From a virus, in the IMG/VR virus record IMGVR_UViG_3300042400_000452, positions 1 through 24,200 of that record: a stretch of 24,200 nucleotides of DNA; one strand, 5' to 3'. Numbering within the stretch: the first letter of the stretch is position 1; every line of letters starts with the position of its first letter. The notes beneath the pieces are model-generated. The model was not told the DNA's origin. It did no database searches and saw nothing but the letters and a program-made list of their open reading frames with translations. A program made the position numbers and the translations under genes. Positions 1-24,200 of this stretch are shown here, piece by piece.

Positions 1-105
1 TGCTTTTGCTACATCGGCTGGTTCAAGTGTATAACGCTGTGCATCTTCAACAACGCTACGGTATGTGCTAACAAGTTGCTTAACTGCGGCTTCAACTGCT
101 TTCAT
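1..105 (-). CDS. Small phage protein, N-terminus only (runs off the left edge)
   Basis: The frame starts with an ATG at 105 and stays open to position 1, giving 35 visible residues (MKAVEAAVKQLVSTYRSVVE and onward). A good ribosome site, AAGGGG, lies about six bases before the ATG. The visible part is predicted helical and has no motif I recognise. It follows the Ref-like nuclease gene in the same direction and is probably the next gene of the minus-strand replication operon. The gene is real in my judgement because of its start signal; its function is unknown. Confidence 0.6.
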   Translation of the reverse strand, partial: MKAVEAAVKQLVSTYRSVVEDAQRYTLEPADVAKA

Positions 106-169
106 GGTGTTCCCCTTACTTTAAAAATGTTAATTTATAAATAGTGCTGTTGATTAGATTCATTCTGTT

Positions 170-460
170 TCATATTTCGCCCCTTAAAATCTTTGTGGTG
201 TGTTCTAGCAATTCCGATTCTGTTCCATACTTGGCTTCAAATGTCTTTTTTCCTGCGTGAAATGCAACGCCATGTCCGCCGTTAGTATGATGCAAAGGGC
301 ATAAGGGTATTGCTAATAAATAATGCGACCTTTGTGCCATGCCAACACCATGTCTTATGTGATGGATATGTGGCATTGTATAACCTAACCCCTTACGGTG
401 GCAAACTATACATCCTAACTGGCTTAACTTATCGTAATGCTGGCGTTCTGCTTTTGTCAT
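170..460 (-). CDS. Ref-like HNH nuclease (RecA-dependent nuclease family)
   Basis: This 96-residue protein has a zinc/HNH arrangement: C17 and C20, a histidine cluster H31, H33, H34 and H37, then C54-P-L-H57-H58 and H63. The order (CxxC, PHIHH, CPLHH, then a GVAFH segment) matches the C-terminal nuclease domain of phage P1 Ref, a RecA-dependent HNH endonuclease that cuts DNA at RecA-formed joints. Many phages carry this domain alone, near NinB-type genes, as here. The ATG directly follows the TAA stop of the NinB-like gene, so translation is probably coupled. Expected role: nicking or cutting recombination intermediates during phage replication. The family call rests on motifs; activity is inferred. 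Confidence 0.8.
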   Translation of the reverse strand: MTKAERQHYDKLSQLGCIVCHRKGLGYTMPHIHHIRHGVGMAQRSHYLLAIPLCPLHHTNGGHGVAFHAGKKTFEAKYGTESELLEHTTKILRGEI

Positions 461-766
461 TTAATCTTGTAACCATATATTGTGTTCAGCCGCCCATCGT
501 TCAACACGCGCCATAAAATCGTTTAATTCAGCAACATTGCAATCAGCCGTTGATTTTAATTCGGTAATTACTTTGCCGCTTGATGTTTTCCATTCATTAT
601 AGCCAAGGTATCTATCCTTGAACATTATTTTCCACCAATGATGGTTATGATAAAGCCCATCGGCGGCAGGCACATTGGCGGCAATTTCAGTAAATAATAA
701 ATGCAATCGGTTGTTCTGCGGTAATGACCGTTTGGCTTCTTGCCCACATTCTTTACACTTTGCCAT
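461..766 (-). CDS. NinB-like recombination protein
   Basis: The 101-residue product carries the NinB (lambda Orf) signature: a segment RSLPQNNRLHLLF at residues 14-26 followed by tryptophan-rich text (HHWWK, and NEWKTSSGK). Lambda Orf/NinB binds single-stranded DNA and helps load recombinase, standing in for RecFOR. An extra N-terminal CxxC (C4, C7) precedes the core; two cysteines alone make a zinc site uncertain. Its start overlaps the end of the upstream gene by 14 bp and its stop abuts the Ref-like nuclease, so the two are probably made together and act on the same intermediates. The family assignment is good; the detailed role is taken from lambda. Confidence 0.75.
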   Translation of the reverse strand: MAKCKECGQEAKRSLPQNNRLHLLFTEIAANVPAADGLYHNHHWWKIMFKDRYLGYNEWKTSSGKVITELKSTADCNVAELNDFMARVERWAAEHNIWLQD

Positions 767-1085
767 TTTTATTCTTTAATGCTTGTTCAATAGCAATTCT
801 GTATTTTTCATAAGGGAAATCATTGCCCCATATCCAAATTTTTTTAATGATTGCATTATCTTCATCATCCGTTAATCCTTGCCATCTTGGTTGTTCTAGC
901 GCATCTTTAAACTCAATATCCCTAGCAATGCGTTCGTCTATGGTATGTTTCCAATCCCTTGTTAGGGGTTGTTCTAGTGCTTCTTTGCAAGCGTTGATTG
1001 CTTCTTTCCATTTACTTTCACTTACACAATCTACATTCAAATCCAATACTTCAATCGCCATCTTTAATGCTTCGTCTTTAGTCAT
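753..1085 (-). CDS. Unknown phage protein with two ALEQP segments
   Basis: A 110-residue acidic, helical protein. ALEQP occurs twice (about residues 36-40 and 62-66), the second followed by RWQGLTDDE, a phrase common in small phage hypotheticals. The C-terminal third is rich in Trp and Lys. There are no catalytic motifs, membrane segments or cysteine clusters of note. The start overlaps the preceding gene by 8 bp and the end overlaps the NinB-like gene, so it belongs to the operon. Function unknown; the repeated phrase suggests an internal duplication. Confidence 0.7.
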   Translation of the reverse strand: MTKDEALKMAIEVLDLNVDCVSESKWKEAINACKEALEQPLTRDWKHTIDERIARDIEFKDALEQPRWQGLTDDEDNAIIKKIWIWGNDFPYEKYRIAIEQALKNKNGKV

Positions 1086-1254: not shown

Positions 1255-1663
1255 GTTGCAAAGCATCCTTGGCAAATTTAAGGCTTATTTCGGGAAAATT
1301 CTGTGGATTAGCAATTATTCGCTTTGCCCATGCCTTATGGTCAGTCTTAGGTTTGAGTTTTTTAGCAACAAAAGTGTTTAATTCTTCTATGTGCTTTTTG
1401 TTTTCTGCGTAATTAACAGGCGATGGCAATGCAAAATAAACATCTTCCCTTGGCTTGCATAAAGCAATAATGTCAGCAGGCTGTGGCAACTTGTTTGGTG
1501 TGTCTGTCCATACATCAAGGGCTTTTGCTACAACGCTAAAATCAAAGCGTGATAGTTTATGAAACCAAATCCTTAACATTTCCTTTTCGGGCGGTGGTTT
1601 GTTGTAAATAGCAAAGACGGCAACAATCATGTCTTTAAATGCCAATTTATCTGCATCAATCAT
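1241..1663 (-). CDS. Putative replicative-helicase loader (lambda P / G39P-like)
   Basis: A 140-residue helical protein. Its first half (FKDMIVAVFAIYNKPPPEKE, then LRIWFHKLSRFDFSVVAKAL, then LPQPADIIALC) has the layout of phage helicase-loader N-terminal domains: a short helix bundle in which W, L and F packing residues precede a PxPADI segment. The gene lies three positions downstream of the replisome organizer, where initiator and loader genes usually sit. It overlaps the glycosyltransferase stop as ATGA, which points to coupled translation. Known families: loaders of this type recruit the host or phage DnaB helicase to the initiator. No helicase gene is in this window, so host DnaB would be the likely client. 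The family assignment is inferred from pattern and position. Confidence 0.5.
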   Translation of the reverse strand: MIDADKLAFKDMIVAVFAIYNKPPPEKEMLRIWFHKLSRFDFSVVAKALDVWTDTPNKLPQPADIIALCKPREDVYFALPSPVNYAENKKHIEELNTFVAKKLKPKTDHKAWAKRIIANPQNFPEISLKFAKDALQHEMA

Positions 1664-2532
1664 TTTTTATCCTTTAATATCATTCCATAATTATTAACAA
1701 CATTTTTAATAATTACATTTTTATTTTTTATTAGTTTGTTTTTTTTAAACGGCGAATAATCAACATGATGATGCCATCTATTAAACTTCCAAACAACTTT
1801 AGCAACATCGGGATGTAAATCTGCCAACATTTGTGATTTATTTAATGTTCCCTCATTTTTGTAAAATTCTTTTGTATTGCCACCTGACAATCTTTGCGTT
1901 GTTACTTTGCCACATAAAAAAGCATTAAATTGAATAGTGCAAAACCCATCTTTTAAAACACGCAAACATAAATCCGTATCTTCGTTATATCTTCCACGCC
2001 AACGATAGGGAATGTTATTTTGAATAAGCAAACATGAATAAATGCGTGTGTTTAAAATAAATGGCGCAACTTTGTCAGTTGATTTACAAAATGAATAATA
2101 ATTAAATCCTGATATATAAACATTTTCATATCTATCAACAAAATCTTCAGCCGCTTTAAATGTTGCGCCGCTTCTAACAGGAACTTTTAAATTCCTATTT
2201 AATCGGTGAAAATCATCAATGTTATCATCCAAAACCCAATGTCTTTTATGACCGTTTTTTATAGAATGTTCCCATGCAAAATTTCTTGCCGCACCCGGTC
2301 CTTTGCTTCTAGCAAATCCTAAATCATCGCAAGTATTATATTCATCAAGATATTTTTTAGGCAATATCAGAATTTTTGATTTATCAATTACTTTTGCATA
2401 TTGTTCAAATTCTGCTTCTTCAATAATAATTGAATAATTAACATTCATTTTTTCCAACGCTTTGCTAGTCAATCTTGTTTCCCATCTTCCTTTTGAAACA
2501 ATATAGATTGGATAATTAGGGTTCATTGACAT
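1660..2532 (-). CDS. TET-associated-type glycosyltransferase (TAGT), putative DNA-base glycosyltransferase
   Basis: With the ATG at 2532 this is a 290-residue GT-A-like glycosyltransferase. Landmarks: YIVSKGRW at residues 10-17, a GPGAARNFAW segment near 78-87, an acidic WVLDDNID at 99-106 (the DxD-type nucleotide-sugar/metal site), GRYNEDTDLCLR at 180-191, then QRLSGGN at 213-219. This order matches the TET-Associated Glycosyltransferase family described by Iyer and Aravind, proposed to add sugars to hydroxymethylated bases in phage DNA. No TET/JBP oxygenase or cytosine methyltransferase is in this window, so the acceptor base is open. The frame extends to a GTG at 2556, but no ribosome site supports it; ATGs at 2532 and 2526 overlap the preceding gene's stop and suggest coupling. 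Codons are more AT-rich than in neighbours. Confidence 0.7.
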   Translation of the reverse strand: MSMNPNYPIYIVSKGRWETRLTSKALEKMNVNYSIIIEEAEFEQYAKVIDKSKILILPKKYLDEYNTCDDLGFARSKGPGAARNFAWEHSIKNGHKRHWVLDDNIDDFHRLNRNLKVPVRSGATFKAAEDFVDRYENVYISGFNYYSFCKSTDKVAPFILNTRIYSCLLIQNNIPYRWRGRYNEDTDLCLRVLKDGFCTIQFNAFLCGKVTTQRLSGGNTKEFYKNEGTLNKSQMLADLHPDVAKVVWKFNRWHHHVDYSPFKKNKLIKNKNVIIKNVVNNYGMILKDKK

Positions 2533-2767
2533 ATATTTTTGCCGAATTAACACCACGGGTTAATTTTGGATGCCAAATACTTTTTGTTTTTTCAGTTATT
2601 TTTTGGTTTATTAAATTGGCAAATTCAAGCATTGATTCTTTACTGTCAAACCTAACGATTATTTTTGCATAAGGTTCTTGTTGTTCTTGAATAAATTCGG
2701 GCATATCTTTCCATTCGGTAAAAACAGGCGATTCCAAATCATCAAACAAATTATGTGAATCAATCAT
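2516..2767 (-). CDS. Small conserved partner of the TAGT gene
   Basis: An 83-residue protein with the core TEWKDMPEF, then YAKIIVRFDSKESMLEFANL, then TKSIWHPK. I recall this W-x-D/G-MPEF plus VRF and KSIW(Y/H)P pattern as a recurring small phage domain, standing alone or fused to ParB-like proteins, often close to TAGT genes; that memory is not checked here. The fold looks like alternating beta and alpha segments (about 35-60) with no catalytic motif. The ribosome site AAGGAAACTAT before the ATG at 2767 is the same as that of the plus-strand early genes. It overlaps the glycosyltransferase by about 17 bp. Role unknown; a DNA-modification accessory is an inference from linkage. Confidence 0.65.
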   Translation of the reverse strand: MIDSHNLFDDLESPVFTEWKDMPEFIQEQQEPYAKIIVRFDSKESMLEFANLINQKITEKTKSIWHPKLTRGVNSAKIYVNEP

Positions 2768-2776
2768 ATAGTTTCC

Positions 2777-3457
2777 TTAAAACGGGTTCATATCAATAAC
2801 AGGCTGTTCATCTTGCCAACTGCCAGCGTTTAAATACCGTTCGGGGTGCTTGATATACTTTCCATCTTCCTTTTTCCAATCAGCAGATTCCCTTTGCCAA
2901 GACAATGCAAACAAAACATCATCTAATGGCGGTCTTTGTTTAAGCCATGCTTGCTTTGCTTTCTGCTTATCTTTTTTCTTTGGGTATGCCAACCAAAATT
3001 GTTCAAATTCTTCATCAAGCGCATTTGCGCGAATAGGTTTACTTGCCTTAACTAAACTAGCCTTACCTAACCTAACCTGCGATTCCACTTTGGCAACATC
3101 TTGGAAACATTGTGTTTCCATTGTGTAAACATTATTGTTTTTTAAAGATAATTTTGCCTTTTCATCAATGTAAACGCTAGGTTTGTATCGGTCTTTTTGA
3201 ATAAGGTTATGAATCTTCCAATGCTTAATTACGCACACACCACTTTCAAACGGTATGACAAAATTCTTTGCCATCAATATCTTTAAATCATCATCCGCGC
3301 AACCAATCATTCGCTGTATTTTTTTAGCGTTATTTATAAATCCATCATCATCGGCACGCATTGATAAGTGAAAATAAAGCGATTGTGTTGAACATGGCAT
3401 ATCTAAAAAAGCATCGCTATCAATGATAGTTTTTGCAAACATTCTGCGTTCAGCCAT
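2777..3457 (-). CDS. Replisome organizer / replication initiator (phage O-like, DnaD-type N-terminus)
   Basis: A 226-residue protein starting MAERRMFAKTIIDSDAFLDM. The first 100 residues match the winged-helix N-terminal domain of phage replisome organizers (SLYFHLSMRADDDGF, then IQRMIGC, then KHWKIHN and DRYKPSVY). The C-terminal 60 residues carry the usual distal domain: FEQFWLAYPKKKDKQKAKQAW, then KYIKHPERYLNAGSWQDE. Proteins of this type bind origin DNA and bring in helicase plus loader. I chose the ATG at 3457 because GGGGGAAAG sits just upstream; the frame continues to 3577 but that part lies inside a structured leader. The gene is preceded by that leader, a promoter and DnaA boxes, consistent with origin control. 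Confidence 0.8.
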   Translation of the reverse strand: MAERRMFAKTIIDSDAFLDMPCSTQSLYFHLSMRADDDGFINNAKKIQRMIGCADDDLKILMAKNFVIPFESGVCVIKHWKIHNLIQKDRYKPSVYIDEKAKLSLKNNNVYTMETQCFQDVAKVESQVRLGKASLVKASKPIRANALDEEFEQFWLAYPKKKDKQKAKQAWLKQRPPLDDVLFALSWQRESADWKKEDGKYIKHPERYLNAGSWQDEQPVIDMNPF

Positions 3458-3468
3458 TTCTTTCCCCC

Positions 3469-3556
3469 AAAAAAAAGGGGCTACAACTACTAACTCCGAT
3501 GTTTTAAATCGGTTGGTGGAACGGTCTAGTAACCGCCAGTTAGTATGTGTAGCCCC
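3469..3556 (-). terminator. Terminator-like leader hairpin upstream of the replisome organizer (possible attenuator)
   Basis: On the minus strand the arm GGGGCTACACATACTAACT (3556-3538) pairs with 3495-3477 at 17 of 19 positions. It closes a 42-nt apex that can form two small hairpins (TGGCGG/CCACCA with one G-U pair, and CCGAT/ATCGG). Eight U residues follow at once (3476-3469), as in an intrinsic terminator. Next comes GGGGG of the ribosome site (3468-3464) and the ATG at 3457. The CCCC of the stem could instead pair with that GGGGG across the U-run, hiding the ribosome site. The plus strand has no U-run, so the element works leftward. It may attenuate the replication gene or end transcripts from the VRR-NUC gene. 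Confidence 0.6.
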
Positions 3557-3589
3557 ACTAGATTTAATCGCCACCACGCGATTTGTTGA

Positions 3590-3618: not shown

Positions 3619-3661
3619 GCGTTTATTTACAGCCCCTTTTTAGCCAAAAATGCCTGTTTTA

Positions 3662-3828: not shown

Positions 3829-3830
3829 CT

Positions 3831-4178: not shown

Positions 4179-4192
4179 GGGGTTATTCTACC

Positions 4193-6415: not shown

Positions 6416-6940
6416 ATGACCTATGCAAAATTAAGGGCAATCAATGTAAATGCCCAAACTGAAAAGAAAGGCAACCTAACCTATTTGTCATGGACATGGG
6501 CGGTTGATGAACTACTGCAAGCCGATGAAACTGCCACATGGGATTTTCCCGAACCAAAGTATTACGGCGAAACCATGATGGTGTTTTGCAATGTCACCGC
6601 ATTTGGCAAGACCATGAAGATGCAATTGCCTGTCATGGACAATCGCAACAACGCTATTGCCAACCCCGATGCCCGTAAAATCAGCGATGCTACTATGCGA
6701 TGCCTTGCTAAATGTATTGCTTGCTTTGGCATTGGTTTATATATCTATGCAGGGTCTGACCTGCCACAACTTGATGCAGATGAATATGCCGAAAGACTTA
6801 ATGCCTGCGTAACTTTAGCAGAATTGCAAGATGCGTATTTAGCCATTGTGCCAATGTTCAAAGCAGATGCCCAGTCGCTTGCCGTCATTACAAAAACCAA
6901 AGACATTATGAAAGCCAAACTTACAAAGGATGCAAAATGA
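6416..6940 (+). CDS. Sak/DUF1071-type single-strand annealing protein
   Basis: The 174-residue protein has the DUF1071 pattern: NLTYLSWTWAVDELLQADET near 20-39, then ATWDFPEP, a beta-rich middle (YGETMMVFCNVTAFGKTMKM), and the helix KISDATMRCLAKCIACFGIG near 88-107. These belong to the Rad52-like Sak group of phage annealing proteins, which coat single-stranded DNA and pair complementary strands. The YqaJ-type exonuclease and the SSB-like protein encoded just downstream complete a lambda Red-like set. The distal 60 residues are a helical tail. Length is normal for the compact members of the family. Confidence 0.85.
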   Translation: MTYAKLRAINVNAQTEKKGNLTYLSWTWAVDELLQADETATWDFPEPKYYGETMMVFCNVTAFGKTMKMQLPVMDNRNNAIANPDARKISDATMRCLAKCIACFGIGLYIYAGSDLPQLDADEYAERLNACVTLAELQDAYLAIVPMFKADAQSLAVITKTKDIMKAKLTKDAK

Positions 6941-7370: not shown

Positions 7371-7645
7371 CCGAACAATTACCCGATGATGAAATGCAAC
7401 TCCTGGTCGCCGATGCCGTTCGTTATCGCTTCCTGCGCGATGTTGTGCCATCAATTATCAATAATTTATTGCCCGATGAAAATTACTATTGGGATAAGTA
7501 TGTTGGCTTTGAATCTATTTATTATGCAAAAGGCGATGGAACGGCTGAAGTTAAAAATGGCAAAGATTTAGATGATGCCATTGATGCTGAACTTGGTTTA
7601 ATGTTTGACAGGGAAATTGCCGAACAAATAAAGGAAACGCCATGA
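7367..7645 (+). CDS. Conserved phage protein with DAVRYRFLRD motif
   Basis: A 92-residue acidic protein. The phrase VADAVRYRFLRDVV near 14-27 followed by a WDKYVGFESIYY segment and a C-terminal DLDDAIDAEL helix is a common layout in small phage hypotheticals. No catalytic motif or membrane segment. Its ATG overlaps the preceding stop (ATGA) with AAGGATGAAAA upstream, and its end overlaps the exonuclease start. Function unknown; constant linkage to recombination genes would suggest a role there. Confidence 0.7.
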   Translation: MTEQLPDDEMQLLVADAVRYRFLRDVVPSIINNLLPDENYYWDKYVGFESIYYAKGDGTAEVKNGKDLDDAIDAELGLMFDREIAEQIKETP

Positions 7646-8265
7646 ACGAAATCCAAGGTTCGGATGAATGGTTTGCCGCCCGATTGGGCAAGGTCAGCGC
7701 AAGCCGACTAGCCGATGTATTAGCAACCGTTAAAACAGGTGAAGCGGTAACGCGCCGCAATTACCGTATGCAACTGGTTTGCGAACGCTTAACGGGGCGC
7801 AAAGCAGAAACCTATACCAACGCCCACATGGAACGCGGAAATGCCTTAGAACCGCTTGCAAGGGCTTCCTATGAACTAAGAAAAGGTGTCATGGTTGATG
7901 AAATTGGCTTTGTCCAACACCCGACCATTGAAATGGCAGGCGCAAGCCCCGATGGGTTGGTTGATGGCGGCAGTATTGAAATCAAATGCCCAACGCCTGC
8001 TAATCACATTGAAACCGTATTGCGCGGAACAGCCCCAAGCCAATACTTTGCCCAAATGCAATGGCAAATGGCTTGTTTAGGCGATGCTTATAAATTTGTG
8101 GATTTTGTGTCCTATTGCCCCGATGTGGGTGAAGATTTGGAATTGTTTATTGTTCGCGTTCCACGCGATGATGAATGGTTGCAACAAGCGGAAAAGGATG
8201 TGATTACTTTTCTAAATGAAGTGTCGGAAACATACAGTCAATTAAAATCACTTAAATGGCTGTAA
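7642..8265 (+). CDS. YqaJ/lambda Exo-type recombination exonuclease
   Basis: A 207-residue member of the YqaJ family (PD-(D/E)XK fold). Motifs: GSDEWFAARLGKVSAS at residues 6-21; MERGNALEPLAR at 63-74 with E64 and E70; GASPDGLV at 100-107 with D104; SIEIKCP at 111-117 with E113 and K115; and an FAQMQWQMAC helix. These are the metal-binding residues of the lambda exonuclease family. The enzyme should chew 5' ends at double-strand breaks and feed 3' single strands to the Sak annealing protein encoded upstream. It overlaps the previous gene by 4 bp (ATGA). Full length and intact by motif. Confidence 0.9.
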   Translation: MNEIQGSDEWFAARLGKVSASRLADVLATVKTGEAVTRRNYRMQLVCERLTGRKAETYTNAHMERGNALEPLARASYELRKGVMVDEIGFVQHPTIEMAGASPDGLVDGGSIEIKCPTPANHIETVLRGTAPSQYFAQMQWQMACLGDAYKFVDFVSYCPDVGEDLELFIVRVPRDDEWLQQAEKDVITFLNEVSETYSQLKSLKWL

Positions 8266-9261: not shown

Positions 9262-9712
9262 ATTAAGCGACACCGAAATAAACTTAATTCATGTCATAGG
9301 CACAATGCGCTTTAACATAACAAGCGAACATGGAAATGACCGCAATCAATCGGGTGCTAATGGTTTAAATATGTGCATTGATGGCGTAATGAGTGAATAT
9401 GCCGTTGCAAAGTTGCTTAATGTGCATTTTGATTTTAATTGTGATTATCGCAAATTTGGTGCAGACCTTATTGGTAGAACTGGCAAGACGATTGATGTAA
9501 AATCTACAAGGAAACAAGGTGGCAATCTCAATGCTGTAAAATGGTCTGAAAAAAAACCAGCCGAAATCTTTATTCTTACTGAAATTGGCTTTGATTTTGT
9601 GGATGTGGTTGGCTTTATTAGTCGTAAAGATTTTTTAATTGATGCTAACTTAACAGATGTTGGTAAGGGTGAATTTTATAGTGTGCCGCGCAATAAATTA
9701 AGGGCAATGTAA
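9251..9712 (+). CDS. Putative PD-(D/E)XK nuclease
   Basis: From the ATG at 9251 the protein has 153 residues. Candidate catalytic residues follow the PD-(D/E)XK order: E49 in GVMSEYAVAKLL, D72 in FGADLIGRTG, then D82 and K84 in TIDVKSTRKQGG. The helix before E49 and the strand pair around D72 and K84 fit the fold's core. The frame stays open to 9134, but that part overlaps the Cys/His-rich gene and lacks a ribosome site; MIVKLSDTE is a natural start although its own ribosome site is weak. Likely substrate is phage or host DNA; junction resolution or host-DNA degradation are both possible. Confidence 0.65.
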   Translation: MIVKLSDTEINLIHVIGTMRFNITSEHGNDRNQSGANGLNMCIDGVMSEYAVAKLLNVHFDFNCDYRKFGADLIGRTGKTIDVKSTRKQGGNLNAVKWSEKKPAEIFILTEIGFDFVDVVGFISRKDFLIDANLTDVGKGEFYSVPRNKLRAM

Positions 9713-9960
9713 TGAGTAAAAACGATATAACTGGCGATGCTATTGTTAGCAAGTTTAGCAACACTTATGCTGACAAATACGATGCTATATTTCGCAACAA
9801 AGATTTAGCCAAATGTGCAGGGCAAGCCCCCGATGGAACGATGCTTTGCGCTTACAGGGAACGATGCAAACGCTATGTAATGCCTGCAAGCAACCATCAA
9901 GCGTGGAATGAATTTTGGCGTGGTGGCGATGATTGTGCTAGTTATATTGTTATCGGTTAA
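9712..9960 (+). CDS. Small four-cysteine protein, last gene of the rightward operon
   Basis: An 82-residue protein whose second half has LAKCAGQAPDG, then MLCAYRERCKRY, then a Trp-rich stretch and GGDDCASY. Four cysteines spaced this way suggest a zinc or iron-sulfur site. I recall similar CxYRExCxRY proteins in other phages without a known role. Its ATG overlaps the nuclease stop (TAATG). The 3' end overlaps the convergent endolysin gene by 11 bp. Confidence 0.65.
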   Translation: MSKNDITGDAIVSKFSNTYADKYDAIFRNKDLAKCAGQAPDGTMLCAYRERCKRYVMPASNHQAWNEFWRGGDDCASYIVIG

Positions 9961-10441
9961 ACAACGCCGCTTCATCTTTACGCCTGTTATCCAAGCCTTT
10001 TAAGACCTTACCGCCGGCTTTATTATATTTAAGTAGGCTTTGTATAGCCGTAACTTTATCGCCACGCAACAACGCCTGACGGAAGGTTGAACGCTGTAAA
10101 ACCCCCAACCCAAGATTGAAACTAAAACTAATAGCACAATCAGTTTCCCCTTGTGTAAGTGGGATAGGTAAATAACGGGCAACCCCGCGTTCAAATCGTG
10201 CGACATCCTTAGCCAATAATGCGTCAACTTCTTCTTCACTCCATTTTCTATTATCTTTATATTCTAACTTCCATGCTTTGCGCCGCGCCATGCCATCTAT
10301 GGTTGATGGAATTTTTGCTTGTTCAGGGTATAAAACATGACCAACTCCGATTGTCCAAAGACCAGCCGGGCATTGATATGGTTTATATCTAACGCCCTCA
10401 TGGTGCTTTAACATTTTAAGCAATTCTTTACTTGCCTTCAC
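9950..10441 (-). CDS. Endolysin: GH24 (T4/P22-type) lysozyme
   Basis: A 163-residue muramidase cutting the MurNAc-GlcNAc bond. With start at 10441 (GTG) the catalytic E-x8-(D/C)-x5-T triad is E15, C24 and T30 (HHEGVRYKPYQCPAGLWTIG), the C variant used by several phage lysozymes. Further down come SFSFNLGLGVL near 105-115 and LDNRRKDEAALF at the end, both typical. There is no signal peptide or N-terminal anchor, so release by the holin encoded next to it is expected. The frame extends to a TTG at 10468, also possible. It overlaps the holin gene by 14 bp and converges on the early operon. Confidence 0.9.
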   Translation of the reverse strand: MKASKELLKMLKHHEGVRYKPYQCPAGLWTIGVGHVLYPEQAKIPSTIDGMARRKAWKLEYKDNRKWSEEEVDALLAKDVARFERGVARYLPIPLTQGETDCAISFSFNLGLGVLQRSTFRQALLRGDKVTAIQSLLKYNKAGGKVLKGLDNRRKDEAALFNR

Positions 10442-10925
10442 GGTGTTTTTCCCATTGGCGTGAACCAAAATAGAAGCCGATTATGCTTGAAACAATAGCC
10501 ATTTCATCGTCTGAAAATACTAAACCCATTGCTGTTGTAAATTCAACGCCTGTATAGATTGCCCAAGCCAATCCTGCTAAATCAACAAACACTAGCAAGC
10601 CAACAAAAGTAAATGCAATATAAGGGCGAACCTTGCCATTTAAATCAACCACGGATTGCGATGCCTTATCCATAATCTTCATGTCATGGGCATACAGGGC
10701 TTCGCGTTCCTGTGCGTATGTTTGCATTTCAATTTCATCTAATTTAATTGCTTCTATCTTTTCCTGCGATGCAAACCCTGCTTGCGCCATTGCCGTTTCG
10801 CGTTCTGCTTGTAATCTAGCCATAGCCATTTCATGCTTTTGGTCGCCCTTTTGCTGAAAGAACCCTAATAGGCTAGGCAATGCGGATGAACCAATACCTA
10901 GTAAACCTGAAATAATTGAAAGCAT
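10428..10925 (-). CDS. Holin, 3-TM gene-transfer-agent type
   Basis: A 165-residue protein. A short hydrophobic N-terminus (MLSIISGLLGIGSSALPSLL) is followed by a charged coiled helix (about 25-90) and two membrane segments: IAFTFVGLLVFVDLAGLAWA near 103-122 and MAIVSSIIGFYFG near 142-154, before SRQWEKH. This layout, with VRPYIA before the second segment, matches the GTA_holin_3TM family. The product would form the pore that releases the endolysin encoded immediately downstream. The ribosome site is GGGGAATTAAA. Confidence 0.75.
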   Translation of the reverse strand: MLSIISGLLGIGSSALPSLLGFFQQKGDQKHEMAMARLQAERETAMAQAGFASQEKIEAIKLDEIEMQTYAQEREALYAHDMKIMDKASQSVVDLNGKVRPYIAFTFVGLLVFVDLAGLAWAIYTGVEFTTAMGLVFSDDEMAIVSSIIGFYFGSRQWEKHREGK

Positions 10926-10926
10926 T

Positions 10927-11397
10927 TTAATTCCCCAATGGATTTGATGTTGCCCGCTTAAGGGCTTTAAGTTGCGCTTCTATGCTATCGCGTGTGGCTT
11001 TCATTTCCTCACGCACGCCAAGCAAAGATGCGGCTGTTTCACGCACATTGCCGTTAGTAATAGCCTTGGCTTCGTTAGCCGTTCCAATAGCGTTTGACAC
11101 TTTTTCTTGCATGGAAACAAGTTGATTAGATGTTGTAACCATGCTGTCTTTAACGGTATTGACCGATGATTGCTGTGCTGATAATTGCACCTTTAAAGCA
11201 TTAACTTCAGCCTTTAATTCGGCATCATCATAAGGCTTTGACGCTTCAATGGCTTCAGTCGCCGCTATAACTCGGTTGTAAGTTGTTATGCCGATATAGA
11301 TTGTTCCACTTATCGGTGCTAATACCCCAAAAATCACTAACAATAGTGTTTTCGGTGAGTAATTCAAGTAAGATTCCTTGGCTTTGTTTGATGTCAT
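10927..11397 (-). CDS. Membrane-anchored coiled-coil protein in the lysis cassette (possible spanin-like)
   Basis: A 156-residue protein with a single N-terminal transmembrane helix (TLLLVIFGVLAPISGTIYIG, about 17-36) and a long helical, probably coiled-coil, remainder (heptad-like text from about 55 to 145). This is the topology of an inner-membrane spanin such as Rz, and its place next to holin and endolysin fits. I found no nested lipoprotein partner, so the spanin role is an inference. The start has AGGAA upstream. Its first 143 bp overlap the end of the preceding Cys-repeat gene in another frame, which is unusually long. Confidence 0.6.
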   Translation of the reverse strand: MTSNKAKESYLNYSPKTLLLVIFGVLAPISGTIYIGITTYNRVIAATEAIEASKPYDDAELKAEVNALKVQLSAQQSSVNTVKDSMVTTSNQLVSMQEKVSNAIGTANEAKAITNGNVRETAASLLGVREEMKATRDSIEAQLKALKRATSNPLGN

Positions 11398-12836: not shown

Positions 12837-13072
12837 TTTAAAATGCCCCTACGGTTTTCTAATATATCAAACAGTTTTGAAATCATATCTTTCAATTCTT
12901 TTACATCTTCACGATAATCATCTTTAGCAACATATTCTTTTGGCAATTCTTCACGCAATTTAGCCAAATCTGCTTTTAATTCTTTAACAGCCGCCCACAA
13001 TTCGCGTAAAAACCAACCAAGGATTAACCCTGCGGATGAAAATAAAAGGTTAAGTAATGATTGGGTGTCCAT
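12833..13072 (-). CDS. Small membrane protein with coiled-coil tail
   Basis: A 79-residue protein: one N-terminal membrane helix (SLLNLLFSSAGLILGWFLRE, residues 5-24) followed by a charged helix (KELKADLAKLREELPKEYVA and on). The text EYVAKDDYREDVKELKDMIS is typical of small phage proteins next to holin genes. It could be a second holin or a holin modulator; the sequence cannot decide. AAGG precedes the ATG by about seven bases. Confidence 0.65.
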   Translation of the reverse strand: MDTQSLLNLLFSSAGLILGWFLRELWAAVKELKADLAKLREELPKEYVAKDDYREDVKELKDMISKLFDILENRRGILK

Positions 13073-13090
13073 GATTATGCCTTGTTAATT

Positions 13091-13435: not shown

Positions 13436-15444
13436 TTTTGACCTTTCAATTTAGCAATTTCAATCTTTAATTCTTCAATTTCTTTTCTTAATAAATTTAC
13501 ACCCTCAACAAGCAAAGGCGTAATTTTGTCGTAATTGATAGTTAGATAATCAAAATCTTGCTGTGTGCCATCTTCGTTAATTCTATTTAATGATTTATTT
13601 ATCGCAACAGCGTCAGGCAATATGGCTTGAACTTCCTGTGCAATTAACCCAATTTCTTCTTTGCCAACTTCAATATCCAATTCTAATTCTTTAACTTTGC
13701 TATTCCAGTTAAATCTATAAGTTGTAAGTTTGCTTAAAATATCTAATGATTCATTGCGAATTGGAATTAAGTTTTCTTTTAACCTGCGGTCTGACCAATA
13801 TGCTTGAACTAAGCCTGGACTATAAAAGTTTGTTCCCTCAACATAATAACGCCAACCGCCGCCTATATTTCTATGCACTCCAACAACACCGTCATTCATC
13901 ATTAAGGATTGCTGTCCATCAAATTCAATACCTTTCCATCCATTGCGTGAACCATCCACACGCCATGAACCATATGAACCATTATTTGGATAAAAATGTG
14001 CGGCATTTAAAGGGGAATAAAGCCCTGAATAGTTTGGCATTTCAATCCATTCGCGGCTGTAATTTCGCACCGATGAATCTATGCGACCTGCTGTATTTAC
14101 GGTTTGTGAACCAATGTTTGCAGATGTAATAAAAGAATTCCATCCTTGCCAAGCATTGGCATCGCCATTTCTTGCCCTATATGAAATTCCAGTTGTGTTA
14201 TATCCAGCATTTATTTCTAAATCATATCCAGTATTAGCACTAAATCGTGCAATCGGCCCGGTATGAGGGGCATTAACAGAATAAGTAAATCCTGTGCTGT
14301 TTGTGGACATTGTGTCCGCATTTAGCGTAAATCCCTCATAAAACATAATGTTGCTAGGTTTGCTTGTAACGCCTGTCCATGCCACATTTGTAGCCGTTGC
14401 CGCGTTGCCTGTTACATTAATGCCCCAAGTGCCTGAATTTGTTACATAAGAAACACCTGCATCTGTTATTACAGAACCCCAAAGACGAATTTGCCTACCT
14501 GTTCCTGATGTTGTTTGTGTTCCAACAATGTTTAATCCTGTGCCAAATACAGCCGCACCAATTACGCCATCATTAGTATCAGTTTGATTAGTTGCGCCGT
14601 ATCTTGTATATATCCCTTGCGTAACTTGTATATTGCCAGTTTGATTGCCACCCGTTAAATTGCTTGCACTTGTAGCCGATGTAGCAGTTGTGGCTGTTGC
14701 CGCATTGCCTGTGCATGAACCCGAACTACCTGTGGTGTTTTGATTAAGCGTTGGAATGTCTGCCGCCACAATAGCGCGAAATGTTGGAACGCCTGCGCTT
14801 CCATTAGGTGCGGCTAAAACAAAGTTTGCGGTCTTGCTTGCATAAGGGTTTTGAGTGTCGCCATAACCTGCGGATAGACTAATAACAGGATTTTGACCAC
14901 CGCTTGATGCAACAGGGCTTGTTGCTGTAACGCCTAAAACACCGCTATTTGATATTGTTGGGTCTTGCGATGAACCATTGCCATGTGCAACAGATATGCC
15001 TGTGCCTGCTTGTATTGTTCTGCCAGCAATAGCACCTGAACCGTTTTGCGTAAAAAATCCTGCACCTGACAAATTTTCAATAGCAGTTAGTTTTGTGCTT
15101 AATCCAACAGATATATTGCCGCTTGTTGTTATAGGGCTGTTGCTAACTGTAACGCCTGTTAATGGCGTTATGCCAACGCTTGTAACTGTTCCTGAACCTG
15201 CGCCCGTTGCGTTTACCCAAGCCGTGCCGTTATAAGATAGGCTTTGACCATTGGTTGGTGAAGTTATAGTTACATCGCCAAGGGCTGACAATAAGCCAGC
15301 CCCAACTTGAACAACGGCTGTTCCGTTATTGATGTAAACCTTTCGGTCTGCCATATTAACGCCTAATTCACCCGATACTAATTCGGATGTGTTAGGCACT
15401 TTATTTGCGGTGTTACTGCGTTTTGGTTTTATCGTATTAGCCAT
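13432..15444 (-). CDS. Tail fibre with C-terminal S74 self-cleaving chaperone
   Basis: A 670-residue fibre. The N-terminus (MANTIKPKRSNTANKVPNTS, then LVSGELGVNMADRKVYINNG) is the attachment-type segment also seen in the next fibre upstream. The body is Gly/Ser/Thr-rich beta repeat with the familiar GNAATATTATSATSASNLTG phrase. From about 551 the Peptidase_S74 intramolecular chaperone begins: SDRRLKENL with S551 and K556 as the expected Ser-Lys pair, then EEIGLIAQEVQAILPDAV, LTINYDKITPLL and a final trimer coiled coil. In known members the chaperone helps the fibre trimerise and then cuts itself off just before the Ser. It is probably a receptor-binding or side fibre. Confidence 0.85.
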   Translation of the reverse strand: MANTIKPKRSNTANKVPNTSELVSGELGVNMADRKVYINNGTAVVQVGAGLLSALGDVTITSPTNGQSLSYNGTAWVNATGAGSGTVTSVGITPLTGVTVSNSPITTSGNISVGLSTKLTAIENLSGAGFFTQNGSGAIAGRTIQAGTGISVAHGNGSSQDPTISNSGVLGVTATSPVASSGGQNPVISLSAGYGDTQNPYASKTANFVLAAPNGSAGVPTFRAIVAADIPTLNQNTTGSSGSCTGNAATATTATSATSASNLTGGNQTGNIQVTQGIYTRYGATNQTDTNDGVIGAAVFGTGLNIVGTQTTSGTGRQIRLWGSVITDAGVSYVTNSGTWGINVTGNAATATNVAWTGVTSKPSNIMFYEGFTLNADTMSTNSTGFTYSVNAPHTGPIARFSANTGYDLEINAGYNTTGISYRARNGDANAWQGWNSFITSANIGSQTVNTAGRIDSSVRNYSREWIEMPNYSGLYSPLNAAHFYPNNGSYGSWRVDGSRNGWKGIEFDGQQSLMMNDGVVGVHRNIGGGWRYYVEGTNFYSPGLVQAYWSDRRLKENLIPIRNESLDILSKLTTYRFNWNSKVKELELDIEVGKEEIGLIAQEVQAILPDAVAINKSLNRINEDGTQQDFDYLTINYDKITPLLVEGVNLLRKEIEELKIEIAKLKGQK

Positions 15445-18021: not shown

Positions 18022-18417
18022 TTATGCTACCCTTAAAAAAAGTAATCCTTTACTATAATAAATGCCTGCTCCTGTATATGTCCCTAATGCTTTCCATGTT
18101 CCACTAACTGCTGAACCCCTAAATCCACCATTTGCTATTTGCTGGTTTACTGCCCCACCAGTTGTCGCCCATCCAGCCGAATCGTTAGCCTGAACCGCTA
18201 ATGCGGAATAATACAAACCCGAACCTGCATAATTTGTTCCAGCAGTAACCGCTACAAAATTGATTGCAGTTGATAAAAAAGCATAACTTCCAACTGCACC
18301 TGCCGCCAATCCTGCTGTTGCTGTTCCTACTGCCGCCGTTGTTACTGCGCCAGCCGCCGTTGTTTGAATTGTGCTATCTGGGAATTGAACCCCAGTACTT
18401 ACTAATGATGTTGGCAT
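18022..18417 (-). CDS. Short tail fibre protein
   Basis: A 131-residue protein. MPTSLVSTGVQFPDSTIQTT is a start common to aquatic phage fibres; after an Ala/Gly/Val-rich stretch (GAVTTAAVGTATAGLAAGAV) comes a C-terminal domain of strands with Trp/Tyr (GGFRGSAVSGTWKALGTYTG). It is probably a short fibre or tip subunit. No chaperone domain. Confidence 0.7.
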   Translation of the reverse strand: MPTSLVSTGVQFPDSTIQTTAAGAVTTAAVGTATAGLAAGAVGSYAFLSTAINFVAVTAGTNYAGSGLYYSALAVQANDSAGWATTGGAVNQQIANGGFRGSAVSGTWKALGTYTGAGIYYSKGLLFLRVA

Positions 18418-18690: not shown

Positions 18691-21600
18691 CTATGCCGCA
18701 CCAACAGATGCAAATGTTTGTTGTTGCATAATACTAGCACCATTTGTATTTGTTGATAATACATAACTGTTAGTGCCAATTGTGTAATCTGTGCTTTGTT
18801 TCATTAAAGCCCCATTTATATATAAAGCAAACGACAATGGGTTAAAATTAAATGAATATGTTACCACCCCACTAGATGCGTAAGCAACAACATTTGATAT
18901 TGTGCCAGTTGGTGTTGTTAAGTTATTTGCGCTAAATTGTATCATAGTCATTTTCCCAGTTGCAGTTGCAGGCAAGTTTGCAATTGCACCGCTTGTAATA
19001 TCATAATCTTGTTCATTAATTACCGTTCCATTTAAAAATAACAATTCATACGCACTATGCACCGCCCATTCAGTTGGCGTGTAACTACTTGCGCTTGTTA
19101 AATCAAAAGCCCAACGGCTAAACACGCGATAAGAACTGCCTGTTGCCCTGTATTGGTAAATTGTCGCGCCTGCGCTTACAGTTACGCTTGTTGAAAATGT
19201 AATGGTGCGCGTTGAATAATTTACGCCTGTTACTGTGTATTGTGTTGGCGTTCCGCTATTAGCAAAAGTAATAATGTCGCCTACATCAATTAGTTGCCAA
19301 GGCATTGTTGCGCTATTCCAAACAACCGTATTGGTTGATGATGATGCAACGGTTAAATTGATTGTTGTATAAGTATTGCCTGCCGCAACCGCACGCATTG
19401 AAATGCAAGTAATAATGTCGCCTGTTGTTGCGCCTACGCTTAATGTAAAGGTTGTGCTTGTTTCGCTGTATTCGCTTGTATCAAGTAACAATCCATTTTT
19501 AAAAATTAAGTCTTGCCCTGTTATATAACCCGATACCCTTGCTGTTGGCGTAAATACAGTTTGACCGCTTGTTGCCGTAAATGATTGTTGGTTAAAATAA
19601 AAATTATCAGGTGGCGAAAAGCCAACAATACGCCCATAAATATCAACCGTTATGGTTGCGGCTGAACTTGTATAAGTTGAACCGCCGTCAGGGAATGTCA
19701 AAAATTCCGCTAATGATGCAACCAGTTGTCCGTCAGGTGTGTTTTGAACAGCAATTTGACCTGCGCTTGCCGATGGCATTCCCGTGATAATTGTTTGACC
19801 TGTTGCCCTATCTAAATCAATTATGTTTGTTCCGTCAGGTAATGCTGACCAAATACGGAAATCAAATTTGCTTGTTGTTGTTGGAACAAATGCGCCACCA
19901 CTACCAGCCACATTTGTTCCGCCTGCATAAATGGCAAAATCAGTATCAAAACCAAATTTGCGGTTTTGATAATTGATGTAGGCTAAATAAATGTTAGTGC
20001 CAAAAGCAGGGTCGGCTAAATACCATTTATAGTCGCTTGCTGTGCTTGACGGTGTGCTTGATGCTTGATTATATAAACCAAAATAAGTTTTATTGCGTGG
20101 GTTTAAACTAAAACCTGTGCCTGTAATGCTATCAGCATAAGCAATAGACAGATATTGTTCATTATATTGGAATGTTGTTGGTCGCCATTGCAAAACACTA
20201 GATGCTAAAGAAAAATCGCTTGATGCAATACTATTAACCATGCGGCTAAAAAAATACCAGTTTCCAGCAGGTATGTTAAACAGTTGAACGGCAGGCATTA
20301 AAACACCTTGACCATAAGGGTTGCCATTAGCATTAACTTCAGTCGTGCCAGCAAGGATGCGCTGTGCGGATGTTGGATATTGATAGGCTGAATACCAAAC
20401 TTCAGCATATTGCGTAATGCCTGCACTTGATGTTACTACTTGAACACTAAATGCAGGATTAGCGGCAAATGGCAAACTTGTTGTTACAGTTGGTGCAGGA
20501 ACGACACCAAAAGTAATTGGTGAACCAATACCCGTATTAGGGGATGGTGTAAATTGCGTTACATTTACATCATCATAAACCGCACCGTTAAATTCCATCA
20601 AACTTAATGTGGCGGTAACTTGACCGCTATCATTAAATTTTTGCGTTACTTTACCAATCCTAAATTGTTTTGCAACCCAACCGTAATTAGAATTAGTAAC
20701 GGTAACAATATCGCCAGCATCAAGTTGCAAACCTGTGTAATCAATGTCCACTTGCATTTGCAAATCTTCACGCGCCGCTTCTAAAAAGCGATTTGCTGTA
20801 TATTGCGCTTGCACATTATTATTGCATAACGGCAGGCTAACAGATTGTTTGTTTACAGGTTCATTTGGAAATAACAACGCAGGATTAACAACCGCCAAAT
20901 CAAATGTTGCGCTGTTAAAACTATCTTGCGATGAATTGTCAGGAAACTTAACTTCAATAATGTTAAATGAATTTGATAAATCAATAGGGCTAATTGATAT
21001 GGCAGACACCATATTGCTATCGTTTATATTCATAGCAATAGTATTAGTTGGCGTTTGCACAATAACGCCCCATAACGATGTAATTTCAGAATAACGAACC
21101 AAACAATCGCAACAATCAGCCATTGATTGAATATTAGCCATTATTTTTTGTGTAGTATCAATTGTTCCATTAAATTTAAAGCGTGATTGTGTTGATGAAC
21201 CGCCGCTATAAGGTGTGTATGTAATTAAAGCATTGGAATATGTATTTAATGCCGTCATGCTTGCAGTATCAACATTTATAATGTCTATTGCCGCGCCATA
21301 CCTTGTGCTAGTTAAATAATCAGTCATACAATCGCCTGCTGAATTGCGCGGATTGTTTACTTGGAAACGGGTTGCATTTAATGAAACAAGATTGCGTGAT
21401 TGGCTGTATTTAATATGCACAATCGCAAAAGCGCAGTTTGACATTAACTTACTACTATCCCAAGTGTAAACAAGACCACTTGAACTCATTACGCTTATTG
21501 CACTTGAACCACTATTAGTTGGCGTATTAGAACCGTTGCTATATAAATAAATATCCATATATCCTGCAACATCTTGTGATAACCCTGTGCTTTCATCAAG

Positions 21601-22059
21601 CAAACTTGCTACGGATGCGCCTGAACCAAACACGCATTTTTTACCACCCCAATACACATCGCCAAAAGTAAATACATCGGGCGTGTTGCCGTTTTCGCTA
21701 TTGGTAACTTCGCTTAATGCCATAACCCAATAAATGTCTTGATTATCTTGCGAAATAGACATATCAACAATTATGCCGCCAACCCATGCAGAACCATAAA
21801 CAACAGGTAATTTATTATCGCCCGCAGGTGAAAGTTGTTGGCGATTGCCGGGATTTGGTTCAGCCTGTTGATTTTGATTTGGGCTATTTGGCGCAAAGAT
21901 TTTGGAAATAATCATTGTTGCAACCATGTTGATTGCAAATGCGGTTATTGCGCCTGCCGTTGTTGCCAAAAATGCCGTGGATAAAATAAGTGAAGCCACC
22001 GCAAATGCAGGTGAACAATAGGTAAACCAAACTATAAAAAGCAGTAAAAATTTAATCAT
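18691..22059 (-). CDS. Tail tip attachment protein, lambda J-like
   Basis: About 1122 residues, by far the largest gene. After two hydrophobic N-terminal segments the conserved J core appears: KLPVVYGSAWVGGIIVD near 82-98, KIMANIQSMADCCDCLVRYS in the central domain, NIIEVKFPD, and NRFLEAAREDLQMQVDIDYT leading to GLQLDAGDIVTV. A Fn3-like part and a receptor-binding C-terminal third follow. That third repeats an (F/Y)xNGxLx(D/Q) module three times (near 855, 1008 and 1080). I start at the ATG at 22059, which overlaps the GNAT stop as ATGA; an upstream TTG has no better support. The first 20 residues (MIKFLLLFIVWFTYCSPAFA) look like a signal peptide, which is odd for a tail protein. Confidence 0.85.
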   Translation of the reverse strand: MIKFLLLFIVWFTYCSPAFAVASLILSTAFLATTAGAITAFAINMVATMIISKIFAPNSPNQNQQAEPNPGNRQQLSPAGDNKLPVVYGSAWVGGIIVDMSISQDNQDIYWVMALSEVTNSENGNTPDVFTFGDVYWGGKKCVFGSGASVASLLDESTGLSQDVAGYMDIYLYSNGSNTPTNSGSSAISVMSSSGLVYTWDSSKLMSNCAFAIVHIKYSQSRNLVSLNATRFQVNNPRNSAGDCMTDYLTSTRYGAAIDIINVDTASMTALNTYSNALITYTPYSGGSSTQSRFKFNGTIDTTQKIMANIQSMADCCDCLVRYSEITSLWGVIVQTPTNTIAMNINDSNMVSAISISPIDLSNSFNIIEVKFPDNSSQDSFNSATFDLAVVNPALLFPNEPVNKQSVSLPLCNNNVQAQYTANRFLEAAREDLQMQVDIDYTGLQLDAGDIVTVTNSNYGWVAKQFRIGKVTQKFNDSGQVTATLSLMEFNGAVYDDVNVTQFTPSPNTGIGSPITFGVVPAPTVTTSLPFAANPAFSVQVVTSSAGITQYAEVWYSAYQYPTSAQRILAGTTEVNANGNPYGQGVLMPAVQLFNIPAGNWYFFSRMVNSIASSDFSLASSVLQWRPTTFQYNEQYLSIAYADSITGTGFSLNPRNKTYFGLYNQASSTPSSTASDYKWYLADPAFGTNIYLAYINYQNRKFGFDTDFAIYAGGTNVAGSGGAFVPTTTSKFDFRIWSALPDGTNIIDLDRATGQTIITGMPSASAGQIAVQNTPDGQLVASLAEFLTFPDGGSTYTSSAATITVDIYGRIVGFSPPDNFYFNQQSFTATSGQTVFTPTARVSGYITGQDLIFKNGLLLDTSEYSETSTTFTLSVGATTGDIITCISMRAVAAGNTYTTINLTVASSSTNTVVWNSATMPWQLIDVGDIITFANSGTPTQYTVTGVNYSTRTITFSTSVTVSAGATIYQYRATGSSYRVFSRWAFDLTSASSYTPTEWAVHSAYELLFLNGTVINEQDYDITSGAIANLPATATGKMTMIQFSANNLTTPTGTISNVVAYASSGVVTYSFNFNPLSFALYINGALMKQSTDYTIGTNSYVLSTNTNGASIMQQQTFASVGAA

Positions 22060-22490
22060 TGAATCCAACTTTCTTCTATTTTAGTAAACCCAAACTTTTC
22101 ATATTTAATATCAGGGCTTGAAATCATTTTGTTCATTGTGAACAATTTAATTCTTCCCTCATCTTTTAACTTTTTAGCGTGCATTACATACGCGCTTAAA
22201 AGCCTATAACCAACGCTTGTGTTTCTATTTTCAGGCTTAACATACCAAGCCAACTCATATAAAGCAAAGGTTTTATCGCACCATATTGTTGGCTGAATTA
22301 CACCAATAATCATGCCAACATTTTCTTCAATATATATTACGCCTTGCCCTGCAATCAAATTGTCTAACAAGCGGCTTATATATTCAACATTGTTTAAATC
22401 TTTATATTGTTGAATGGGGCTTTCATCCCTAAACAATCGCATCAAATCCATGATGCCGTCTTTATCAAACTTGTTAGCAAGCCTTATCAT
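22056..22490 (-). CDS. GNAT-family N-acetyltransferase in the tail operon
   Basis: A 144-residue protein with the GNAT fold: MIRLANKFDKDGIMDLMRLF (strand 1 and helix 1), VIYIEENVGMIIGVIQP, LYELAWYVKPENRNTSVGYR (strand 4 and the acetyl-CoA loop, where the usual RxxGxG reads RNTSVGYRL), LLSAYVMHAKK and KYEKFGFTKIEESWIQ at the end. It uses acetyl-CoA to acetylate an amine; the substrate is unknown. Its place between distal tail genes, overlapping both neighbours by 4 bp, suggests action on a structural protein or on a host factor late in infection. Confidence 0.8.
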   Translation of the reverse strand: MIRLANKFDKDGIMDLMRLFRDESPIQQYKDLNNVEYISRLLDNLIAGQGVIYIEENVGMIIGVIQPTIWCDKTFALYELAWYVKPENRNTSVGYRLLSAYVMHAKKLKDEGRIKLFTMNKMISSPDIKYEKFGFTKIEESWIQ

Positions 22491-23113
22491 GTATTGTAAG
22501 CGTTTGGGTCTGAACTTTTACCAAAAAAGTAATTGATGGATTGAATAAAATTAACACGCGCCATTGATGTATCACCAGCATTAAAAAATTGCCAAGCATT
22601 GTCATTGGTGTAACGCCCTGCCGTTCTGTTTTGCAGAATAATTTGTATGCTTGATGCGCTTACATTTATTGTGCCAACAAAAAGCCTTATTTCTTCCATC
22701 CATTGTTCGCTAATGGTGAATGAATTGATGTAGCCTGTAAAAAACTTATAAAGTCCACCATCGCCGCCTGTTGTAATCAAAGCATTGTTTGTGTCAAAGA
22801 ACCCATGCCACATTTCAATCTTTGAACCTTTAATGTTTTGCCCTAAAACCCAACCAAGCAATGCCGTGTCAATACCAACAAGCGTAACCGATGTTTCATT
22901 TGCTGTTGATTTAATATCACGCTGAACATCGCCAATTTGCACCAAGGCTGATAATCCATTAAACGGATTGGCATCAACGGATGGAACAGTAATTGCATAA
23001 GGCGCAGTTGAAAATAATGAAACGGTTGTTACGCCCAAAACTTCCGTTGTAACGCGCACAAAATCCGCTAGGCGGATGTTATTTGTATTTTGAACAGGAA
23101 CTATGTTTTGCAT
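22487..23113 (-). CDS. Distal/minor tail protein
   Basis: A 208-residue beta-rich protein: NTNNIRLADFVRVTTEVLGV, then VQIGDVQRDIKSTANETSVT, then SKIEMWHGFFDTNNALITTG and YINSFTISEQW. Mid-part strands with an IxMWxGFFD phrase are typical of minor tail proteins placed between tape measure and tip protein (L/DUF2163-like functional position). Exact family not certain. Stop and start overlap with neighbours by 1-4 bp. Confidence 0.65.
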   Translation of the reverse strand: MQNIVPVQNTNNIRLADFVRVTTEVLGVTTVSLFSTAPYAITVPSVDANPFNGLSALVQIGDVQRDIKSTANETSVTLVGIDTALLGWVLGQNIKGSKIEMWHGFFDTNNALITTGGDGGLYKFFTGYINSFTISEQWMEEIRLFVGTINVSASSIQIILQNRTAGRYTNDNAWQFFNAGDTSMARVNFIQSINYFFGKSSDPNAYNT

Positions 23114-23808
23114 TATAAGACCGCTTCAAACGCTTTAAAAGTGCCGTTCCATGCAATGAAACTATCATTGGTCATTGGAACTAATGTATAAGTTGGATAT
23201 TCACGCAAGATAACGCAAAAGGTTGTTCCCGTAAATGTGCCACCACCTAATGCAATGGTCGTTCCATATTGCCCAATTACACATTGCATAGGGCTTGTTA
23301 GGGCTGTAATTAAATTGCGATGAACGGGAATGTTTACTGTTGAACCGCTACCACGCAACACATCGGCGGTTGCAATATAGGCATAACGACCTACTTGGCA
23401 AAAATCGCCCGTTCTAACAATGACCGTGCTTGATGTAATACCCCCACCAATCGCTGGCAATGCCCCTAGAACCAATGTTTTATTTGCGCTTGATGTCTGC
23501 CATTGACACGCACCAATTTGCGCTTCAGATAAGCCGCCTTGATAGGCAATATAATTAACCCATCCAGTTGAACCAAAATTTAGATATTGTTCCGTTGCTT
23601 TGTCGGCTTCACGCAATGCACTAAGCAAAGGTCGGTTTTGACTATAAAGTAAATATGACATTGGCTTCATTTCAAAGCCAAACGGTTGCACGGTAAGAAT
23701 TTCGGATGTGCTTATGCGTTGGTTGCGTGATACCACCTGCCCAATAAAGCGTTGGTCGTTTATACCAACCGATTCTGCAACAGATAGTATTGTGTTTAAT
23801 GTTGTCAT
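23113..23808 (-). CDS. Distal tail-type protein
   Basis: A 231-residue protein just after the tape measure gene. Text such as GQVVSRNQRISTSEILTVQP, FEMKPMSYLLYSQNRPLLSA, then an inner beta domain (GDFCQVGRYAYIATADVLRG) and the end YTLVPMTNDSFIAWNGTFKA fits distal tail proteins that cap the tail tube and bind the tip. The assignment rests on position and beta content more than on a motif. Confidence 0.65.
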   Translation of the reverse strand: MTTLNTILSVAESVGINDQRFIGQVVSRNQRISTSEILTVQPFGFEMKPMSYLLYSQNRPLLSALREADKATEQYLNFGSTGWVNYIAYQGGLSEAQIGACQWQTSSANKTLVLGALPAIGGGITSSTVIVRTGDFCQVGRYAYIATADVLRGSGSTVNIPVHRNLITALTSPMQCVIGQYGTTIALGGGTFTGTTFCVILREYPTYTLVPMTNDSFIAWNGTFKAFEAVL

Positions 23809-23814
23809 TTTATT

Positions 23815-24200
23815 CTACCTTGACTGTGGCAAGCCGCGTTGCGCTGATTGATTAGCGGCAAATATAGCGTTCTTGTTTTTAGCAAGGAACTGAACACCGC
23901 TTTGCGTATCAATAGCACTCATGTTTTGTATTACCGTTCCATTATAAACTGTTTGTGGCTGACCGCCCATCATTGATGATAATTGATTGTTTGGAATAAT
24001 TGTGCCTGCTGTGCGTGGAACAAATAATTCTGCGCCGCGTTCGCCAACAATAGATGGAACGCCAACAGGTGGGTCGCCACCATCGGCAAAAAATCCACCA
24101 AGCAACCCTGCGCCATTATTGAAATCAGTTGAACTGCTAAACAATCCAAAACCGCCACCGCCACCACCACCAAGCATCCCAAATAAACCACTCATTTGTG
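23815..24200 (-). CDS. Tape measure protein, C-terminal end only
   Basis: The frame runs in from beyond 24200; only about 128 residues are in the window. It shows the usual end of tape measure proteins: a Gly-rich hydrophobic stretch (GLFGMLGGGGGGGFGLF), FADGGDPPVGVPSIVGERGA, ELFVPRTAGTIIPNN, then a Gln/Asn-rich tail. The ATG at 24195 is internal, not the start. The full protein sets tail length; its size cannot be judged here. Confidence 0.85.
   Translation of the reverse strand, partial: QMSGLFGMLGGGGGGGFGLFSSSTDFNNGAGLLGGFFADGGDPPVGVPSIVGERGAELFVPRTAGTIIPNNQLSSMMGGQPQTVYNGTVIQNMSAIDTQSGVQFLAKNKNAIFAANQSAQRGLPQSR

Follow-up and report, generated by a model that had tools for sequence, protein, structure and literature searches.

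Widespread loss of palindromic words and of GAG in a P19250A-group phage fragment: a probable record of many, changing host restriction systems

Our analysis showed that the window (the whole stretch of DNA studied here, 24.2 kb, which is also the whole of IMG/VR record G000) has lost a large set of short palindromic words. The reading we prefer, to which we give a probability of roughly 0.83, is that the window is a fragment of a phage of the P19250A group whose recognition sites were purged under many, changing Type II systems of its hosts. The avoided words would be a record of many past bacterial defences, and the set differs from one relative to another and from one genome segment to another. 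The idea of restriction avoidance as such is broadly sound; the interesting parts are its breadth, its turnover between relatives, its segmental mosaic and the loss of GAG.

Under this reading, the host population would hold a large and shifting set of Type II systems, which would remove recognition words substitution by substitution, with GATC as one entry among many. Each lineage would bear the signature of the systems it had recently met. Such signatures would be repeatedly gained and lost, and recombination would move them from phage to phage with whole modules, with the result that several restriction histories can be pieced together in one genome. A single bacterium is unlikely to have so many specificities; the reading would need either a population rich in restriction systems or a memory that reaches far back to earlier hosts.

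The window, its relatives and its putative host

The window covers about two thirds of the roughly 36-kb genome of a tailed phage, a bacterial virus of freshwater type. It contains tail, lysis, recombination and replication genes and is without head genes. Its near-complete relatives are 35-36 kb long, and one of them has a 127-base terminal repeat; the full lengths of G006, G007 and G021 are 36.3, 34.8 and 35.3 kb, with no GATC in any of the three. The following features are referred to below.

1660..2556, minus strand: predicted TET-associated glycosyltransferase (TAGT), PF20691, E 3.1e-49
2777..3577, minus strand: DnaD-like helicase loader, closest to Streptococcus/Enterococcus phages
6416..6940, plus strand: Sak single-strand annealing protein of the recombination module
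7642..8265, plus strand: YqaJ-type exonuclease of the recombination module
9712..13086: lysis region, 91.8% identical to G011:20352-23726
14255..14258: the sole GGCC of the window
18691..22068, minus strand: J-like host-specificity tail protein, 60% identical over 96% to that of P19250A, used as the probe for relatives and for the tree

Two further observations concern gene content. At 7014-7370 a small protein is encoded that carries PF03118, the C-terminal domain of RNA polymerase alpha, and may be a transcription factor of the phage. The lysis region has long overlapping reading frames on the minus strand (426 aa at 11255-12535, 165 aa at 11857-12354 and 153 aa at 11394-11855).

J, the terminase of G021 and the shared tail genes all place the window in the P19250A group. 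The terminase of G021, a member of the window's clade, is 78.8% identical to that of P19250A over 100% of its length, while the next phage reaches 34%. P19250A infects Methylophilales clade LD28, and Venkman, which belongs to the same genus-level cluster as P19250A, infects OM43 (PMC8163748). Judged from these phage relatives only, the host of the window is most likely a member of Methylophilales. A search for the host through bacterial genomes gave three matches, in Bacteroidetes, Alphaproteobacteria and Nitrosotalea MAGs, none of them credible hosts. These matches are contigs of this phage group (L068, L069 and L070) that were placed in unrelated MAGs, probably through binning errors.

Words missing from the window

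The sequence-only reading of this DNA had noticed an absence of GATC and a near-absence of GTAC. Exact counts bear this out, with no GATC in 24,200 nt and one GTAC at 18395..18398, nine bases from the position 18404 given earlier. The 80-90 copies of each then expected equal the mononucleotide value (86.4), but stricter nulls give fewer. The maximal-order Markov expectations are 61.5 for GATC and 32.3 for GTAC. A codon-aware null of 300 synonymous-codon shuffles, which preserves all proteins and codon usage, gives 41.9±4.8 for GATC (z -8.7; the lowest of the 300 shuffles has 30) and 49.9±6.1 for GTAC (z -8.0). Codon usage as the cause of the word loss is ruled out by this shuffle.

Besides these two words, ACGT, AGCT and TCGA each have zero copies in the window, GGCC has one and CCGG has seven, all of which had been overlooked before, as had the missing GCWGC, CASTG and hexamer palindromes and the loss of GAG/CTC. 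Against the codon shuffle, seven tetramers lie at z -5.6 to -9.9 and most control palindromes lie near 0; CTAG, CATG, GCGC, CGCG, TGCA, AATT and TTAA are within 2 SD of expectation. Longer words are affected as well. GCWGC, CASTG, GGNNCC, CGWCG, RGCGCY and RCATGY are at zero, GGNCC, CCWGG and GTSAC have two copies each, and many hexamer palindromes are at 0 (e.g. TGCGCA, CCATGG and GTTAAC). Degenerate words, namely RGCGCY, RCATGY, GGNCC and GGNNCC, disappear as whole sets.

Turnover between relatives and mosaic genomes

On the 31-row J tree, the minimum number of changes is 8 for GATC, 7 for GGCC and 8 for CCGG; because these genomes recombine and not every segment shares the history of J, the counts are changes relative to J. 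Two sister records, L017 and L018, have GATC at 0 and at 0.48 of expectation, and their other avoidances are common to both. Two contigs from one metagenome differ in a similar manner, with 16 GATC and 1 GTAC in L007 and 0 GATC and 11 GTAC in L008.

Single genomes are also divided. In G011, only one of the 59 GATC sites falls within 9.3-20.4 kb against an expectation of 20.5 (p 4e-10), and in G007 only one of the 27 CCGG sites falls within 4-24.8 kb (p 9e-10); both intervals were picked after the positions were known, which makes the p values too favourable, though both effects are large. Seven of the eight AGCT sites of G011 lie within 9.3-20.4 kb. Its tail/fibre module is GATC-free and the remainder is GATC-bearing. 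L006 and G011 have in common a GATC-bearing segment of 4.25 kb that is 98.7% identical, against 77% identity in their J regions. Modules of differing restriction history have been recombined in this group. All eight GTAC sites of G007 are inside 320 bases (L056 9460-9779), which suggests a short segment that was recently imported.

Relation of the lost words to known restriction specificities

We used the 617 recognition specificities in Biopython and regarded a specificity as eliminated when its sites were at most a tenth of expectation. Of the testable palindromic specificities, 50% were eliminated in the window and 61% in G021, against 7% and 5% of the asymmetric ones; over six clade genomes the ranges were 46-61% and 3-7%. 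A lost tetramer removes longer words too and specificities overlap, so one cannot read these percentages as numbers of separate enzymes. Elsewhere, the palindromic figure was 8% in lambda, 16% in phi29, 18% in T7, 20% in Helicobacter phage KHP30, 20% in Nostoc phage N1, 27% in P19250A, 34% in Anabaena phage A-4L and 43% in Venkman; the six comparator phages outside the group were hand-picked and serve as a yardstick, not as a survey. Among the pooled hexamer palindromes of the clade, 25 of the 31 testable ones with a known enzyme were avoided, compared with none of the five without (p 0.001). This comparison is partly confounded, as most unavoided hexamer palindromes consist of A+T only, yet AATATT (0.15) and ATTAAT (0.18), which are A+T only and have known enzymes, are avoided. 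A published survey found that dsDNA phages avoid orthodox Type II sites but not Type I or IIG sites (PMC6286503), and the contrast between palindromic and asymmetric specificities in the clade agrees with this rule. We infer that restriction was the probable agent of the purging.

General selection against palindromes, acting through hairpins, replication, packaging or a promiscuous nuclease, could account for the depletion seen in most hexamer palindromes with at least one G or C. We regard it as improbable, since TTGCAA (0.88), TATATA (1.00), AAATTT (0.94) and TCGCGA (0.77) are kept, the avoided sets flip between sister phages and between segments of one genome, and the asymmetric word GAG is lost too. 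Palindromes are in fact not equally depleted, as TGCA, CATG, GCGC, CGCG, AATT, TTAA and TTGCAA are hardly or not at all affected.

A single GATC-specific host system (MboI, Sau3AI or Dam-linked), perhaps with one GTAC system besides, had been put forward from the absence of GATC and the near-absence of GTAC. It is very unlikely and is already contradicted as a sufficient explanation, because GATC is one of at least six tetramers that are gone equally, together with dozens of longer specificities, and because L017 and L018 differ in GATC while their other avoidances are common to both. Of the earlier proposal, selection by host restriction is supported as what best explains the missing palindromes; its focus on GATC and a special Dam/Sau3AI/MboI-like system is not supported.

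How the sites were lost

In the stretches that could be aligned between the window and G011, all 25 GATC sites of G011 are broken in the window, where about 17 would be expected to be kept at the observed identities. In this pairwise comparison, which has no outgroup polarisation, 21 of the 25 differ by one substitution. Their counterparts are varied (GAAC, AATC, GGTC, GATT, GACC, TATC and GATG), and 17 of the 24 coding changes are synonymous. The G011 counterpart of the lysis region has 12 GATC, 6 GGCC and 6 CCGG, and all 24 are absent from the window. A substitution test on the J gene alone was uninformative, because the GATC-bearing relatives have few GATC in J.

Such varied single-base products fit selection at each site and not one mutational process. 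Erasure of the words by mutational bias, through deamination of methylated sites or context-dependent polymerase error, is hardly credible, since the lost GATC, GGCC and CCGG have turned into many products, at all four positions and by both transitions and transversions, most control tetramers are conserved in these alignments, and words fall to exactly zero.

Three DNA methyltransferase families gave no match in the window, so that what is visible is removal of sites and not self-methylation, and the latter was rejected. Only one relative, G007, has an N6/N4 DNA methyltransferase gene (G007:33427-34068, minus strand; L057 13427-14068).

Depletion of GAG/CTC

The window has 33 GAG/CTC where 574 are expected, i.e. 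6% of expectation. The value is 0.02-0.10 in the clade and 0.54-1.11 in the other phages examined. The loss covers all frames and both strands. In the clade, all 5-mers that contain GAG are at 0.29 of expectation or lower, while the next trinucleotide, AGA, has a maximum of 1.02. A ribosome-binding cause, in which GGAG is avoided in mRNA, was rejected, as CTC is lost too and all frames are hit; moreover P19250A, with normal GAG, likewise uses AAGGA and not GGAG. The loss acts at the level of DNA and is probably akin to the purging of palindromes.

The residual GAG is unevenly placed, with 284 on the J strand and 93 on the opposite one, compared with 237:225 in P19250A. For genes on the other strand, a rule by genome strand (p 0.06) fits better than a rule by transcription strand (p 5e-5). 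Translocating enzymes that need opposed sites (Type III) are known for such a strand bias.

For GAG itself, we lean slightly towards the combined effect of numerous ordinary asymmetric sites that contain it, such as MnlI-like CCTC, BsmAI-like, Type III and other sites. This concerns GAG alone, is compatible with the purging of palindromes by many Type II systems and is more conservative than one 3-base target. Distant lineages deplete differing contexts (GAGG in L027-28, CGAG and GAGA in L046, GAGA and AGAG in L021), the preferences for flanking bases in the clade show some interdependence (p 1e-5), and the strand bias of the residual GAG is as expected of translocating enzymes. Against it, the uniform depletion of the GAG 5-mers is unmatched by any other trinucleotide, and asymmetric specificities are otherwise hardly avoided.

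The other reading, possible but distinctly less likely, is that a defence which reads GAG/CTC as such, either one short-site enzyme or a translocating family with a GAG core, drove the removal of more than 90% of GAG on both strands and left a strand-biased remainder. We know of no enzyme with GAG alone as its site, and the Biopython specificity list contains none. A literature search on GAG avoidance and MmeII gave nothing usable. Natural 3-bp sites do exist, as in the chlorovirus nicking endonucleases Nt.CviPII (CCD) and Nt.CviQII (RAG), the latter of which includes GAG. However, AAG is not depleted here (0.99), so RAG itself does not fit.

Acquired genes

The predicted TAGT shares 60-70% of its residues with counterparts in large Aeromonas, Vibrio and Tenacibaculum phages. 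Among 27 records of the group it was found only in the window and in the distant G024, and it is a separate, horizontally acquired gene. It has two matches to avoided words, whereas four homologues from other phages have 33-47. The sequence-only reading had also suggested avoidance and glycosylation as two layers of defence; the glycosyltransferase proved real, but its absence from equally purged relatives speaks against that pairing. TAGT is a gene that the window has in common with the TET/JBP-TAGT cytosine hypermodification phages; for the partner TET/JBP dioxygenase and cytosine methyltransferase, the 24.2-kb fragment gave no Tet_JBP or DNA_methylase match, with the Tet_JBP control matching in no genome.

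The helicase loader has been purged too, with one avoided-word match against 42 expected. Its nearest counterparts are in Streptococcus/Enterococcus phages, at about 46-62% identity, which is odd for a presumed betaproteobacterial phage.

Significance and comparison with known systems

With avoidance profiles this strong, phage sequence by itself could reveal the restriction repertoire of bacteria that cannot be cultured. Turnover of the repertoire could be watched between sister phages, some of them from one metagenome, and the words still present in a segment could trace gene exchange. The depletion of GAG suggests a defence with a specificity that no known enzyme has.

As in known restriction-site avoidance of dsDNA phages (Rusinov et al. 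2018, PMC6286503), of which T7 and GATC are a classic case, palindromic orthodox Type II sites are lost here and asymmetric ones are mostly intact. The difference is that about half of the testable palindromic specificities are gone at once from a small genome, with strong turnover between sister phages, a segmental mosaic and an asymmetric 3-bp word in addition. Methylophilaceae phage P19250A (KX815270), of the same group, also misses ACGT and GGCC and is low in GTAC, but it has 111 GATC and 223 AGCT, and its GAG is at 0.62-0.64 of expectation. The marine Methylophilales phage Venkman (MT375522) resembles the window in the extremity of its avoidance, with seven tetramers eliminated along with 43% of palindromic specificities. 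Unlike the window, it has lost GCGC and CGCG and kept AGCT and GTAC, its GAG is normal (0.85), and it has an annotated DNA methyltransferase. Since Venkman eliminates another set of seven tetramers, extreme avoidance may be common in phages of Methylophilales.
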